A stretch of DNA of 64,000 bases, taken from contig NZ_CALMPA010000051.1 of NCBI RefSeq assembly GCF_937871615.1, positions 1 to 64,000 of the forward strand, in the 5' to 3' direction. Below, piece by piece: positions 29,895-47,374 of the stretch. Position 1 is the stretch's first letter, and every line of letters begins with the position of its first letter. A program made the position numbers and the translations under genes. This DNA comes from an uncultured Sphingomonas sp. GTDB lineage: Bacteria; Pseudomonadota; Alphaproteobacteria; Sphingomonadales; Sphingomonadaceae. The notes under the pieces are model-generated. The model made no database searches, had not been told where the DNA came from, and saw nothing but the letters and a program-made list of their open reading frames with translations.

Positions 29895-29923
29895 GACGGG
29901 GCGCCCGCCGGGCTGCAAACTTC

Positions 29924-30003
29924 CATTCGGGCTGAGCTTGTCGACGCTCTGTCTTTTCCTTGCCGAAGAAAAGGGCAGCCCCTCGACAAGCTCAGGGCGA
30001 ACG
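29924..30003. repeat. Dispersed palindrome between hemA and queG
   Basis: Two inverted arms, 29924-29944 and 29983-30003, share CTGAGCTTGTCGA and flanking bases with only minor mismatches. An inner stem (CTTTTC with GAAAAG) sits in the loop. The words TCGACAAGCTCAGG and GGCGAACGG are well known in sphingomonad genomes as a dispersed element. The right arm supplies the last codons and stop of queG. In this convergent gap it could act as a bidirectional terminator. Confidence 0.75.
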
Positions 30004-31053
30004 GGTTTGGAGCGGGGCGAGCCGCGCTATCGCCCATTGCGCGGCATCGCGCACCACGTCGTTCGCGTCGTCGAGCAACGATGCGACTGCGCTCGCCAGC
30101 GCCGCATCGCCGCTGTTTCCCGCCGCGATCAGGCAGTTGCGCATCATCCGATCCCGCCCGATGCGCTTGATCGGGGAACCGGCGAACACCTGGCGGAAGC
30201 CCGCATCGTCCAGCGCGAGCAGATCGGCGAGATGCGGCGCGGCCAGCTCCGCGCGCGGGGCGAAGGCGCGGTTGGCGCGCGCCGCCTCGGCGAACTTGTT
30301 CCACGGACAGGCGGCGAGGCAATCGTCACAGCCATAGATGCGATTGCCGATCGACGCGCGAAATTCCTCCGGGATCGGCCCGGCATGTTCGATCGTGAGA
30401 TAGGAGATGCAGCGCCGCGCATCGAGCCGATAGGGGGCGGGAAAGGCATTGGTCGGGCAGGCGCGCTGGCACGCGTCGCACGAGCCGCAGGTGTCGCGCC
30501 CGGCCTTGTCCGGTTCGAGCGCCAGCGTGGTGTAGATCGCGCCGAGGAACAGCCAGCTTCCGTCCGTCCGGCTGACGAGATTGGTGTGCTTGCCCTGCCA
30601 GCCGAGCCCGGCGGCCTCCGCCAGCGGCTTTTCCATCACCGGCGCGGTATCGACGAACACCTTTAGGTCTCCGCCGGCCTCCGCCACCAGCCAGCGAGCG
30701 AGCGCTTTCAGCGCCTTTTTCACCAGATCGTGATAATCGGTGCCCTGCGCATAGACGGAGATGCGGCCATGCGCCGGCTCGCCTGCCAGGCGCATCGGGT
30801 CTTCGCGCGGGGCGTAGCTCATGCCGAGCGCGATCACGCTGCGCGCTTCCGGCCATAGCCCGGCGGGATTCTCGCGGTGATGCGCGCGCGCCTCCATCCA
30901 CAGCATGTCGCCATGCGCGCCTTCCGCAAGCCATGCGCGCAGCCGCTCCGCCGTGCGCGGCGCGGCATCGGCCAGCGCGATGCCGCAGGCTACGAAGCCG
31001 AGTTCGGCGGCCTTCAGCTTCAGCCGCGCTTCAAGAGAATTGTTTACAGACAC
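29992..31053 (-). CDS. queG: Epoxyqueuosine reductase
   Basis: A 353-residue cobalamin and [4Fe-4S] enzyme that reduces epoxyqueuosine to queuosine in tRNA. Seen: [20 protein letters not shown] with the catalytic Asp, [11 protein letters not shown], and two ferredoxin-like clusters [16 protein letters not shown] and [19 protein letters not shown]-like tail follows ([17 protein letters not shown]). The C-terminal residues and stop lie inside a dispersed repeat, so the natural end may have been altered. No other queuosine gene is in the window. Confidence 0.93.
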
Positions 31054-37837: not shown

Positions 37838-38809
37838 TCAGAGTGATCGACGCGGTGGCGCTTTTTCGATCGCCCATGAATCGCCGCGCGGCGCGATCAT
37901 CACGCCGCCTTGCGTGGCGCGCGCGCCAGCCTCCAGCGAATCGAGCAGCGGCTCGATATTGGTCGCCTCGCTCCACGCAGGCGCGGTGAGCGCATGGCGC
38001 GCGCGCGCCGCGCTGATCGCGCGGCGGGCGAGCCGGCGGCGCAACTCGCGCGGCAGCCCCGCGACATCGGCGAGGATCGCGCCATCGCCGCTTGCGCGCT
38101 CCGCCCACAGGCGATCCGCGACATAAGCGAGCGCAGCCTCGGCCTCGGCCAGCGCGGCGGCGGATTGCGCCAGCGCGAGCGGATCGAGCGACGGCGCATC
38201 GGCGAGCAGCGCGCGGATACGCGTCCGGTCGTGGCGCGGATCGGCGTTGCTCGGGTCATCGACGAACGGGGCCTGGGCATGGATCGCGATCTCGCGCAAT
38301 TCGCGCCGCCGCCAGCCGAGCAGCGGGCGCAGCGCGGGAAAGCCCGCGATCGTCGCGCGCGCGCGGATGCCCGAAAGCCCGGCCACGCCGGAGCCGCGCG
38401 CGGCGCGCATCAGGAAGGTTTCCGCCTGATCGTCGGCATGATGCGCGGTGAGGATCGCCGCCGCGCCCTGTTCGCGCGCCCAGCCGGCGAGCAGCGCATA
38501 GCGCGCCTCGCGCGCGCGCGCCTGGATGCTGGCGCCCGCGATCGGCGCATCGGGCGCGAGGATCGCGTGGCGCACGCCGAGCGCCGCGCAATGCGCCGCG
38601 ACCATCGCGGCTTCGTCGGCGCTGGCGGGGCGGAGGCGATGATCGACGGTGGCCGCCACGATCCGCGCGGGAGCGGCGGTGTGGACGAGGGCGAGCAGCG
38701 CCATGCTGTCCGCCCCGCCCGATACCGCGATCACCAGCCGATCGTCATCGGCGGCGAGGCGCGCGAGGCTGGCGCGAAAACGATCAATGGTGGCGGCGGG
38801 CGGGGGCAT
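37838..38809 (-). CDS. tilS: tRNA(Ile)-lysidine synthase
   Basis: A 323-residue ATP-dependent enzyme that adds lysine to C34 of tRNA-Ile(CAU). The PP-loop ATP motif is VSGGADSMALLALV, followed by VDHRLRP, ILTAHHADDQAETFLMRAARGSG (conserved HxxDDQ region), and FVDDPSNADPRHDRTRIR. It is shorter than E. coli TilS and lacks most of the C-terminal domain, as in many alphaproteobacteria. It is upstream of ftsH. Confidence 0.93.
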   Translation of the reverse strand: MPPPAATIDRFRASLARLAADDDRLVIAVSGGADSMALLALVHTAAPARIVAATVDHRLRPASADEAAMVAAHCAALGVRHAILAPDAPIAGASIQARAREARYALLAGWAREQGAAAILTAHHADDQAETFLMRAARGSGVAGLSGIRARATIAGFPALRPLLGWRRRELREIAIHAQAPFVDDPSNADPRHDRTRIRALLADAPSLDPLALAQSAAALAEAEAALAYVADRLWAERASGDGAILADVAGLPRELRRRLARRAISAARARHALTAPAWSEATNIEPLLDSLEAGARATQGGVMIAPRGDSWAIEKAPPRRSL

Positions 38810-38878
38810 GTCGGTCAGCCAGCTATCAGAGCGCGGCGCCCTGGGCCATGCGGCAATGGACGCGCGACCAGCCCGGCT

Positions 38879-39301
38879 TCACTCCCGCAGTATGGGCTCG
38901 CCGGTCCGGGGATTGGTCAGCGTGACATTTTCGAGCGCCAGGATGCGCCATTCGTCGCCCGCGCGGGTGAGGACGGCCATGATGAGCGTGTCTATCTCGT
39001 GCGGGCCGGCCGGGTGCGCGGTGCCGGTGGTGAGGCGCGTCCAGAAATGCGTCACCGCGGCATCCTCGCCGACCGGAACCACGTCGATCAGCTCATTCTT
39101 CAATGTCGAATCGCGATAGATGGTTTCGTGGATCGAGCGGTGAAGGGCGACGATTTCGTCGACGCCGCGCACATAATGCCCAAATCGGTTCACGAATGTC
39201 GCGTCGGCGTGAAACAGATCACCGAAGGCAAGCATGTCATGCGCGTTCCAGGCGGCCTGAAACGCGGGCGAGGCATCTTCGGGCCGGGTAATTCGCGGCA
39301 T
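38879..39301 (-). CDS. SgcJ/SnoaL-like (NTF2-fold) small protein
   Basis: A 140-residue protein of the SgcJ/EcaC or DUF4440 family: a cone-shaped NTF2-like fold used by various isomerases and hydrolases or with no known activity. Seen: AFQAAWNAHDMLAFGDLFHA near the N-terminus, FVNRFGHYVRGVDEIVALH, and WRILALENVTLTNP at the end. Start chosen at ATG 39301 with AGGGG upstream. The frame is open farther to 39367, but that part is the degraded ruvB 3' copy. It stands right behind that remnant, as if it once followed ruvB directly. Confidence 0.75.
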   Translation of the reverse strand: MPRITRPEDASPAFQAAWNAHDMLAFGDLFHADATFVNRFGHYVRGVDEIVALHRSIHETIYRDSTLKNELIDVVPVGEDAAVTHFWTRLTTGTAHPAGPHEIDTLIMAVLTRAGDEWRILALENVTLTNPRTGEPILRE

Positions 39302-39329: not shown

Positions 39330-39391
39330 TCAATCGAACAACCCGTCCCGCCGCCTGCGTTGAGCATCCGCCCCCGCGCGGCGCGCGCGAC
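39330..39391 (-). pseudogene. Degraded second copy of the ruvB 3' end
   Basis: Two blocks match the 3' end of ruvB in the same orientation. Block 39330-39350 matches 40178-40198 at 19 of 21 bases, including the stop. Block 39351-39391 matches 40236-40276 at 38 of 41 bases. The remnant lacks the 37 bases between them, so its frame is broken: it still reads MLNAGG in one frame and GLFD-stop in another. Together with the true ruvB end it flanks the PEP-CTERM gene. Interpreted as a duplication scar. Confidence 0.85.
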
Positions 39392-39398
39392 ATTACGA

Positions 39399-39427
39399 TA
39401 AAGCCGCCGACCTTGCGACCGGCGGCT
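39399..39427 (-). terminator. Probable terminator of the PEP-CTERM gene
   Basis: An 8-base perfect stem, AGCCGCCG at 39402-39409 and its complement at 39420-39427, with a 10-base loop. Read leftward it is followed by a short run of T then ATCG. It lies 25 bases past the stop of the PEP-CTERM gene and next to the ruvB remnant. Confidence 0.55.
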
Positions 39428-39451
39428 CTATGCCATCCATTGGATCGGACG

Positions 39452-40045
39452 TTACATCGCTTCGCCGCTGGCGATGCGCTTCACCTTCGCGTCGAACCGA
39501 GCGTCCGAGCGGCGCTTTGCGCTGCGCAACATGCCGCCCACCGCGCCGAAGCCGAGGATCATCAAGGCCCAGCTCGCCGGCTCCGGCACGCCGCCGGCCT
39601 TGATCGACAGGGTGTCGAAATCGAAGCTGTGGATTCCGTTGCGGTAATCACTTCCCGAACCCGGCGCCGGGTTGAAGAAGAATCCGAACGACCCGTTGCC
39701 GTTGAGCGCGCTGAGTGAACTGTGATAGCCGCAGCCGGCGAAGCCGCAGCTATTGAGATCGGCCACGAAAACATTCGTCGCGGTATCATAGGCGAAATGG
39801 ACATAGTTGGTGAGCCCGGCAATGTCCGCCAGCGTATAGGTATTCCCGGTGTTCGCGATGGAAACCGAAAATGCGGTCAGGTCGCCATAGCCGAGCACCC
39901 CGGTAGCGCCGTTGGCATAGCTGAAACTGCCGGTGGCGACATCCGTGCCGCCCGAGGAATAAGTGAAGACCTTGGTGGCTGCGTCAGCCGATGTCGCGAA
40001 TGTAGCCAGCGCCGCGAGCGCGATGGCCCCCTTCAAATAGCTCAT
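39452..40045 (-). CDS. PEPxxWA-CTERM sorting domain protein
   Basis: A 197-residue exported surface or extracellular protein. Signal peptide 1-22 (LAALATFATSADA), a low-complexity beta-rich middle (Gly, Ser, Asn, Tyr) with a possible disulfide pair (C100 and C105, NSCGFAGCGYH), then the sorting signal VPEPASWALMILGFG (153-167), a hydrophobic helix and the basic cluster RSAKRR (174-179). Such proteins are processed by an exosortase-like system. Unusually, 18 more residues follow the basic cluster, whereas most PEP-CTERM proteins end there. The gene and its flanks are lower in GC than the surroundings and lie between two copies of the ruvB 3' end. Confidence 0.9.
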   Translation of the reverse strand: MSYLKGAIALAALATFATSADAATKVFTYSSGGTDVATGSFSYANGATGVLGYGDLTAFSVSIANTGNTYTLADIAGLTNYVHFAYDTATNVFVADLNSCGFAGCGYHSSLSALNGNGSFGFFFNPAPGSGSDYRNGIHSFDFDTLSIKAGGVPEPASWALMILGFGAVGGMLRSAKRRSDARFDAKVKRIASGEAM

Positions 40046-40177
40046 ATCAAACTCCCCGTTTGACCAAATCGCAAATTCGACCCTTAGCGGCTAGGTTAGC
40101 GAAAGATTAATCTGCGATCGACGGGAAAGTTTTCCCGATGCGGGACATGTATGCGTTTTGGCCTGATCGGGCGGCGT

Positions 40178-41200
40178 TCAATCGAACAAGCCGTCCTGCG
40201 CGCCCGCCGGCGGATTCAGCCCCAGATGCTTCCAGCCGCCGGCGTTGAGCATCCGCCCTCGCGCGGTGCGCGCGACGAGGCCGAGCTGGATCAGATAGGG
40301 TTCGATCACTTCCTCGATCGTGTCGCGCGGCTCCGACAGACCGGCGGCGAGCGTTTCCACCCCCACCGGGCCGCCGCGATAAATGTCCGCGATCATCGTG
40401 AGATAGCGGCGATCCATCGCATCGAGCCCGAGGTTGTCCACCTCCAGCCGGTTGAGCGCGCGATCGGCGGCGGCGGCGTCCACCTCGATCGTTCCCGCGA
40501 CATTGGCGAAATCGCGCACCCGGCGCAGCAGCCGCCCGGCGATCCGCGGGGTGCCGCGCGCGCGCCGCGCGATCTCCGCCGCGCCATCGCGGGCGATATG
40601 CAGATCGAGCAGCCGCGCCGCGCGCGAGACGACATGTTCCAGCTCATCCACGGTGTAGAATTGCAGGCGGACCGGGATGCCGAAACGATCGCGCAGCGGC
40701 GTGGTGAGCAGCCCCTGCCGCGTCGTCGCGCCGACCAGCGTGAAGCGCGGCAGATCAATCCTGACCGAGCGCGCCGAGGGGCCTTCGCCGATCATCAGAT
40801 CGAGCGCGCGATCCTCCATCGCGGGATAGAGCACCTCCTCCACGGCGGGCTGGAGGCGGTGGATCTCGTCGATGAACAGCACATCGCCGTCCTCGAGATT
40901 GGTGAGCAGCGCGGCGAGATCGCCCGATTTGGCGATCACCGGGCCGGATGTCGCGCGAAAGCCCACCCCCATCTCGCGCGCGACGATCTGCGCCAGAGTC
41001 GTCTTGCCCAGGCCGGGGGGGCCGAACAGCAATACATGATCGAGCGCGTCGCCACGCCCCTTCGCCGCCTGAATGAACACGCGCAGATTCTCGCGCGCCG
41101 CCTTCTGCCCGACGAACTCGTCCAGCGTCTTGGGGCGCAGTGCTGCGTCCATATCCTCCGGCCGGCGGGCGGAGGTGAGCAGGCGATCGGCATCGGTCAT
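40178..41200 (-). CDS. ruvB: Holliday junction branch-migration ATPase RuvB
   Basis: A 340-residue AAA+ motor that drives branch migration with RuvA. Walker [15 protein letters not shown] (58-71), Walker [11 protein letters not shown], sensor segment [19 protein letters not shown], and the winged-helix DNA-binding domain ending [15 protein letters not shown]. Complete. A degraded copy of its last ~100 bases lies about 0.8 kb downstream. ruvA is 62 bases upstream, consistent with one operon. Confidence 0.97.
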
Positions 41201-43170: not shown

Positions 43171-43659
43171 CTAGCCAATCCCCGCGCGGCGGCTCGCCAG
43201 ATGATGCGCGTGGGTGATCGCGACGGCGAGCGCGTCTGCGGCATCGGCGCCCGCGATCTTCACGCCCGGCAGCAGCCGCGCGACCATCGCATGGACCTGC
43301 GCCTTGTCTGCATTGCCGACACCGACCACCGCTTTCTTCACCAGCCGCGCGGCATATTCGCCCGGTTCGATCCCCGCGCGCGCCACCGCGAGCAGCACGA
43401 CGCCGCGCGCCTGCCCAAGCTTCAGCGTGGATTGCGGATTGGCGTTGACGAACACCTCCTCCACCGCCGCCGCCTGTGGCGCATGATCGGCGATCAGCGC
43501 GGCGAGCATCGTATCGAGATCCGCGAGCCGCCGCGCGAGCGGCTCGGCGGTGTCGGTCTTCAGCCGGCCATTGGCGAGATGCGACAGCCGGTTGCCCTCC
43601 GCCCGGATCACGCCCCAGCCGGTGGTGCCGAGGCCGGGATCGAGGCCCAATATAATCAA
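43171..43659 (-). CDS. ruvC: Holliday junction resolvase RuvC
   Basis: A 162-residue endonuclease that cuts Holliday junctions. Catalytic acidic residues: D7 in [16 protein letters not shown]68 in [20 protein letters not shown]139 and D142 in [17 protein letters not shown]. Length is typical. Its start abuts the stop of the DUF559 gene, inside or next to a palindromic repeat, so its native promoter or ribosome-binding site may have been replaced. The usual upstream neighbour yebC lies beyond DUF559. Confidence 0.95.
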
Positions 43660-44048
43660 AGCCTCTCCCCTTCAGGGGAGGGGTTGGGGTGGGGGGCGGA
43701 CCAGCGATCGGGTCGGCTGATGAGTACCGCTGCGATCGTCAGCATGACACCCTCCATATTCTCGCGAACCTCGGCGTTGGTGAAGCGCAAGGTGTGGAAG
43801 CCTTGTTGCGTGAGGTCGGCATCGCGGCGGCGATCGGCGGCGGGATCATGCGTGTCGCCGTCGATCTCCACCACCGATCCCTTCGCCGGACAGAAGAAGT
43901 CGCAGATGTAACCGCCGATTACCGCTTGCCGACGGAATTTGTGGCCGGTTTGGGAATTGGAGAGACGGCGCCACAGGCGTTTTTCCCATTCCGTCGGGTT
44001 GCGGCGCATTTCCGCCGCGCGATCCAGCAATTCGCGCTCCGTCGGCAT
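43656..44048 (-). CDS. DUF559 family endonuclease-like protein
   Basis: A 130-residue protein of the DUF559 family, related to Vsr/MutH-type PD-(D/E)XK nucleases. Seen: [32 protein letters not shown] and [10 protein letters not shown] (probable metal-binding acidic residues), then [19 protein letters not shown]. No function is proven for the family. I chose the ATG at 44048 over the earlier one at 44066. The last residues ([14 protein letters not shown]) are encoded by the flanking repeat. The gene is bracketed by inverted copies of a ~35-base repeat and separates yebC from ruvC. Two stretches I counted are lower in GC than the flanks. Confidence 0.85.
43660..43695. repeat. Palindromic repeat, left copy beside DUF559
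   Basis: Contains CTCCCCTTCAGGGGAGGGG followed by TTGGGGTGGGG. It is the near-exact inverted copy of 44055-44092. It overlaps the 3' end of the DUF559 frame and ruvC's upstream region. Confidence 0.85.
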
Positions 44049-44054
44049 GACATT

Positions 44055-44092
44055 TCCCCACCCCAAACCCCTCCCCTGAAGGGGAGGGGCTT
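44055..44092. repeat. Palindromic repeat, right copy beside DUF559
   Basis: CCCCACCCCAAACCCC followed by CTCCCCTGAAGGGGAGGGG. Inverted relative to 43660-43695 over about 35 bases with few differences. It lies between the yebC stop (44099) and the DUF559 start (44048). Confidence 0.85.
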
Positions 44093-47282: not shown

Positions 47283-47291
47283 GGCGGTTCC

Positions 47292-47358
47292 GGCCCGCTC
47301 CCCCACCCCGCCTCCCATTCAGGATACTGGCGGGGGAGGCGGGGTGGGGGAGCGGGCC
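47292..47358. terminator. 25-base-pair perfect hairpin between convergent genes
   Basis: Arms 47292-47316 and 47334-47358 are perfectly complementary over 25 bases (GGCCCGCTCCCCCACCCCG at the outer end of the left arm), with a 17-base loop. It lies 10 bases after the phzF stop and 16 before the end of the lipoprotein gene on the other strand. It probably ends both transcripts, though no clear T run follows. The CCCCACCCCG core resembles the palindromic repeats near DUF559, so it may be a mobile repeat reused as a terminator. Confidence 0.7.
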
Positions 47359-47374
47359 GGCGCCGCGACAAAAA

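Follow-up and report, generated by a model that had tools for sequence, protein, structure and literature searches.

A degenerate second ruvB 3′ end beside a PEP-CTERM gene suggests gene acquisition downstream of ruvB in a Sphingomonas genome

Integrative elements that enter at the 3′ ends of genes leave their cargo flanked by directly repeated copies of the gene end. Other routes of gene gain have also been described. In one study (PMC5635113), hotspots lacking recognizable mobile elements are described together with recombination at the flanking core genes. In another (PMC3240628), homology-facilitated illegitimate recombination during transformation replaces a local segment with a foreign one of similar size, and most such events show 3–10 nt of microhomology.

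We analysed a 64-kb stretch of DNA (64,000 nucleotides, called the window) from contig C51 of a Sphingomonas genome labelled G000, in which a PEP-CTERM gene resides between the intact 3′ end of ruvB and a second, degraded copy of that end. As in the integrative elements just described, a direct repeat of a gene end flanks the cargo; in contrast to them, the locus has no tyrosine integrase (PF00589) on its contig, a single-gene cargo, a degraded repeat and, among the loci examined, no second occupied site. It resembles the products in PMC3240628 in that a short foreign insert replaces a segment of similar size beside a homologous anchor and carries no mobility genes, but its junction is without visible microhomology, a spare gene end is left behind and no donor was found. 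Like the hotspots in PMC5635113, it has a changing set of accessory genes bounded by conserved genes, here ruvB on one side and ptsP or tilS on the other, whereas our comparison follows one locus across species. With modest confidence, we read the locus as the scar left when genes were acquired in an ordinary way at the plastic slot that follows ruvB; it reveals no new mobile element. It offers a small, readable example of how the borders of core genes gain and lose genes with no mobile element in sight, and shows that in Sphingomonas the region past the ruvB 3′ end is plastic.

The ruvB 3′ end and its second copy

The ruvB gene lies on the minus strand (41200–40178; an open reading frame of 340 amino acids carrying the Pfam domains RuvB_N, AAA_lid_4 and RuvB_C), and its end reads as normal and intact in the window. 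This working 3′ end (40178–40276) recurs 786 nt beyond the end of the gene as a 62-nt remnant (39330–39391, minus strand) that corresponds to roughly the last 99 nt of ruvB. The two copies align in direct orientation as one block of 46 nt (39346–39391 versus 40231–40276, 42/46 matches or 91%) and one of 22 nt (39330–39351 versus 40178–40199, 20/22 or 91%); when aligned in the ruvB frame register, the blocks match at 39/42 and 17/18 positions. Comparison of the last 120 nt of ruvB with its own downstream flank gives E = 3e-15. The same-orientation duplication reported in a preliminary description of this DNA is therefore real, and it is not a product of chance. Also borne out is the 37-base deletion that had been placed in the downstream copy: 2 nt stand in the remnant in place of 39 nt of ruvB, a net loss of 37 nt that also shifts the reading frame past the deletion.

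Self-comparison of the 64-kb window returned seven repeat pairs at E ≤ 1e-3; a palindrome tops the list, and the two ruvB ends form the strongest direct repeat. A whole-genome search (3.99 Mb; 40 of 95 first-look candidates were scored) found no third copy of the remnant. An assembly artefact was considered and dropped, because the locus lies within a 78-kb contig and the copies are not identical. Palindromic or inverted repeats occur in the window at 29922–30005, at 47284–47366 and at 43659–43694 with 44056–44092, the first being a member of a family of about 80 nt that is listed at more than 20 places in the G000 genome.

Genes between ruvB and tilS

The interval between the two ruvB ends (39392–40177, minus strand, 786 nt) has a GC content of 59.8%, which is, as first described, below that of the surrounding genes (68.9% for ruvB and 74.8% for tilS). 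The sole gene recognised there from open reading frames and Pfam encodes a PEPxxWA-CTERM sorting-domain protein of 197 amino acids (39452–40045, minus strand), and matches to PF07589 and NCBIfam NF035944 confirm its earlier assignment. The protein shares its sorting motif with the PEPxxWA-CTERM proteins of NF035944, scoring 50 bits against a curated cut-off of 35, whereas its body rises above the cut-off in no Pfam or NCBIfam family. Behind the gene, a hairpin stretch (39395–39440, minus strand) that stops a few nucleotides short of the remnant has a predicted fold of −23.7 kcal/mol (z = −4.0). The hairpin is probably the gene’s own terminator, as had been suggested, although a terminator consensus scan lists no site at 39395–39440, an omission probably due to the shortness of the T run.

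Within the genus, the best relative that aligns with most of the PEP-CTERM protein shows 48% identity to it, and G217 reaches 65% identity over the C-terminal 57 residues. No relatives were found at E ≤ 1e-15 in a sample of 297 further genomes of the family, or in searches of genome contigs (by peptide patterns), plasmids and viral contigs.

Beyond the remnant, the gene order continues with an SgcJ/EcaC-family gene and then tilS. The SgcJ-like gene (38879–39301, minus strand; SnoaL/DUF4440; 140 amino acids) is recognised by Pfam and by the TIGR02246 profile (56.7 bits, cut-off 33.95), and its distribution is scattered. Its ATG at 39301 lies 29 nt beyond the stop of the remnant, exactly as originally claimed. 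Owing to the deletion, an ATG within the remnant (39367) is in frame with this gene and opens a 162-amino-acid reading frame; matches to homologues start at residues 1–14 when numbering begins with the internal ATG (39301). The open reading frame at 37838–38809 (minus strand) is the gene we take to be tilS.

The SgcJ gene is present in 14 of the 295 genomes of the genus, the window’s own included. Eleven of the 13 others are 60–71% identical to it, one is 40% identical and one is truncated by a contig end; none lies beside ruvB within 1.5-kb flanks (both flanks for 12 loci, the last being cut by a contig end). When 11 of the 13 loci were compared as DNA, likeness to the window was restricted to the gene, save three short matches. 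Locus L041 has a further 25-nt match to the window, and a stretch from G217 has a 44-nt match to the end of the window’s PEP-CTERM gene; a 34-nt match of L042 to the ruvB 3′ region (E = 1e-4) proved to be another gene. Relatives are also present on plasmids of Sphingobium and in records from Acinetobacter. Judged by where its homologues are found, the SgcJ-family gene appears to be one that travels. The suggestion that it once followed ruvB directly as the ancestral state is not supported, given these 13 loci and the lack of a match in the close relative G049 at E ≤ 1e-15. In Sphingomonas sp. 67-36, the nearest named relative by its TilS, DNA matches to the searched part of the window are found only from tilS on, and the upstream genes differ.

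A RuvB search of the 295 genus genomes (own counted) gave 283 matches at E ≤ 1e-150. Within the best half or so of these, G049 is closest (99% identity in amino acids, 92.4% in nucleotides), followed among the matches listed by G178 and G179 (97%) and then by G217, G063 and G048 (96%). The G049 slot between ruvB and tilS, of about 980 nt (978 nt, versus about 1,316 nt in G000), contains an alpha/beta hydrolase gene on the opposite strand and lacks the PEP-CTERM gene, the SgcJ gene and the remnant. Homology of G049 with the window ends 2 nt past the ruvB stop and restarts at 38859, just upstream of tilS. The empty site foreseen in close relatives was thus found in part: G049 is without all three features, but its slot holds the hydrolase gene rather than a clean junction, and ruvB directly followed by SgcJ with a single 3′ end was not found among the relatives examined. 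The PEP-CTERM gene and the remnant are specific to the G000 genome among those examined, and the hydrolase gene of G049 may itself be a newcomer.

Two further observations concern these relatives. Between ruvA and ruvB, G049 (L033), G048 (L035) and G217 (L084) carry about 570–1,140 nt extra, compared with about 60 nt in the window, and the ruv genes may be split in these genomes. TilS matches of G049 (L004) fall in two overlapping frames, so its tilS looks frameshifted in its assembly, with sequencing indels as the likely cause.

The ruvB downstream slot and the origin of the second end

To describe the 3′ side of ruvB across the genus, we used 133 loci that are distinct in the last part of the gene, drawn from a first set of 57 and from 80 added later. 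Seven of the added loci were picked as PEP-CTERM carriers (G004 since its gene had already been seen beside ruvB); the others were taken mostly in list order, with some on short contigs left out. The ptsP gene follows ruvB in 70 of the 133 loci, with a median gap of 408 nt and a gap of more than 600 nt in 24, and was not found in the examined stretch of the other 63, many of these stretches being only 1.5 kb. In the set of 57, the distance from ruvB to ptsP ranges from 49 to 2,677 nt where ptsP was found. Where both ptsP and tilS are downstream, ptsP is between and tilS lies 4.4 to 7.0 kb past ruvB. The ptsP block is located elsewhere in the genomes of G000, G049, G217 and G048, and the gene preceding ptsP has, by eye, the same look in G000 and G049. 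Five slots chosen for Pfam analysis carry TM2, glyoxalase, PhzC-PhzF, alpha/beta hydrolase and PEP-CTERM cargo. This variability of gap and cargo, along with the displaced ptsP block, marks the 3′ side of ruvB as an old, repeatedly used breakpoint, and the slot downstream of ruvB is plastic in the gene orders compared.

A strong second ruvB end is present at 1 of the 133 loci, that of the window. None of the other 132 has the layout. Weaker ruvB-tail matches (E ≤ 1e-3) occur at five other loci, with lengths of 31 nt in G042 (L026), 43 nt at 79% identity in G086 (L243) and 15–20 nt in the remaining three. Inspected by eye, the copies in G042 and G086 are degraded and lie amid palindromic GC-rich repeats, and G086 has two such tail and repeat units downstream of ruvB.

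G000 and G049 both have the arrangement ruvB, slot, tilS with ptsP elsewhere, and by parsimony their common ancestor therefore had the same arrangement. Today the slot of G000 is filled by a PEP-CTERM transcription unit together with an SgcJ-family gene, that of G049 by the hydrolase gene. An acquisition is consistent with this variable slot, with a best PEP-CTERM relative in the genus at 48% and with SgcJ relatives that share little beyond the gene itself. In such a course of events, at least one incoming fragment would have recombined homologously on one side, with ruvB or tilS/ftsH as the anchor, while its other side would have been joined illegitimately at 39391/39392. This would have stranded a second copy of the ruvB 3′ end between the new genes, its source being either this strain or a close relative of it. 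This spare, non-functional end may subsequently have decayed, by the deletion and by four differences in 60 nt, with ruvB remaining intact.

The number of events, one or two, the anchor and the donor are what we infer; the genomes searched yielded no donor in which ruvB neighbours either an SgcJ gene or this PEP-CTERM gene. An insert coupled with local replacement beside a homologous anchor is seen when G000 is compared with G049, although G049 is perhaps not the older state. Microhomology at 39391/39392 amounts to 0 nt by eye against the genome’s own ruvB, a weak test in that this gene is perhaps not the true parent. Of the two options left by the preliminary description, illegitimate recombination is favoured over a stripped element.

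The main rival to this acquisition is self-copying by slippage or template switching, in which the ruvB end was duplicated in tandem or by a template switch and the PEP-CTERM gene came in between, either later or in the same repair. We consider it possible but less likely than acquisition. Of the 45 ruvB tails compared, the remnant comes nearest to its own ruvB (56/60, next G178 and G179 with 54/60), and at the third base of codon 340 it agrees with its own ruvB, unlike most others. The weaker partial tail copies in G042 and G086, two loci that have a downstream neighbour in common and no PEP-CTERM gene, likewise speak for copying. However, at two sites (the third base of codon 337 and the first base past the stop), few as these are, the present ruvB groups with G049 and the remnant groups with several other species. 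Likelihood placement over about 60 nt favours neither origin: on the G000 branch the remnant scores 1.1 log units under the best placements, which fall outside G000 and G049. Differences at codons 312, 314 and 320 are uninformative on the origin of the remnant. The final 99 nt of ruvB differ between genomes in any case (83/99 for G000 and G049, 87/99 for G000 and G179, 84/99 for G049 and G179), so no sign of import was taken from the ruvB tail.

A small integrative element could also have entered at the ruvB 3′ end and restored the gene, its integrase being lost later or acting in trans. The layout, with an intact gene end, cargo and then another gene end pointing the same way, is of the kind such an element would produce, and a direct repeat of the gene end is present at both borders, the distal copy being short by 37 nt net. 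Phage_integrase (PF00589) matches number 21 in the genome, and 18 of these exceed the family cut-off; as they are located on other contigs, an integrase could conceivably have acted in trans. But none of the 21 is on C51, in agreement with the original remark that no integrase is present, and the ends of the 786-nt interval have no terminal inverted repeats beyond those of shuffled sequence (best 8 nt with one mismatch; mean 8.2 and maximum 12 in 100 shuffles). Furthermore, the distal copy, which such an element would leave as the original end, is no more like the ruvB end of the sister G049 than the proximal copy is (51/60 versus 53/60), the layout does not recur at any of the other 132 loci, and literature on integrase attachment and ruvB yielded, in the records consulted, only CRISPR biology. 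Site-specific integration at ruvB is unlikely, and we give a stripped integrative element, the second option of the earlier account, only a small chance.

PEP-CTERM genes at other gene ends

A broader explanation is that PEP-CTERM surface-protein genes of Sphingomonas are mobile single-gene cassettes that move without an integrase and settle by preference at gene 3′ ends, ruvB included, at times duplicating the end. If true, it would explain the spread of these bacteria’s many PEP-CTERM genes, but we consider it very improbable. A PEP-CTERM gene lies directly beside ruvB at 3 of the 133 loci (G000, G166 and G004), against about 0.2 expected by a rough count from 93 PEP-CTERM genes in 15 genomes with about 3,900 genes per genome assumed; the sample is skewed by 7 loci, among the 80 fetched, that were picked as PEP-CTERM carriers. 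The gene is on the strand of ruvB in G166 (L074) and convergent to ruvB, about 10 nt off, in G004 (L233), but neither locus has a ruvB duplication. By sequence comparison, the encoded proteins are at most distant relatives of the window’s, that of G166 being 29% identical and that of G004 falling short of E 1e-12.

Direct repeats spanning a PEP-CTERM gene were found at 6 of 63 loci (4/45, then 2/18 further ones) at E ≤ 1e-4, in a DNA-level test that strongly diverged gene ends would escape. A control of 300 random placements, made in 49 different loci, gave 12 at the same cut-off. Loci excluded beforehand numbered 6 of 51 for the first count (no open reading frame or a short flank) and 8 of 26 for the second (tested earlier, no open reading frame or a short flank). 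The 12 other PEP-CTERM loci tested in the G000 genome have no spanning repeat at E ≤ 1e-4; one 21-nt match (E = 0.001) occurs among this genome’s other PEP-CTERM loci. Inspection of the six repeat loci showed that a gene end is involved only in the index case and in G276. By eye, the G007 repeat consists of similar terminators of adjacent PEP-CTERM genes and those of G016 and G251 are intergenic, and the G115 repeat, a 21-mer, is too short for judgement.

In G276 (L060, 543–2505), a PEP-CTERM gene with a nidogen-like domain adjoins a D12-class adenine methyltransferase gene, which is dam-like, and lies between that gene and a second copy of its 3′ end in the same orientation (75% identical over 79 aligned columns). 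The proposed search for further PEP-CTERM genes flanked by duplicated gene ends thus gave one case besides the index, G276, in the 63 tested loci. Two cases make no rule, and movement as cassettes is kept alive at low probability. Among the titles seen, literature on PEP-CTERM with Sphingomonas and horizontal transfer, or with exosortase, duplication and insertion, offered none on point.

The PEP-CTERM protein of the window has a tail: at 39452–39520 it extends beyond the basic end of the motif (RRSDxxFDAKxKxI). Its last 63 residues, motif included, have matches at E ≤ 1e-10 in 30 of the 295 genus genomes (own counted), and some of these matches align right through the tail.
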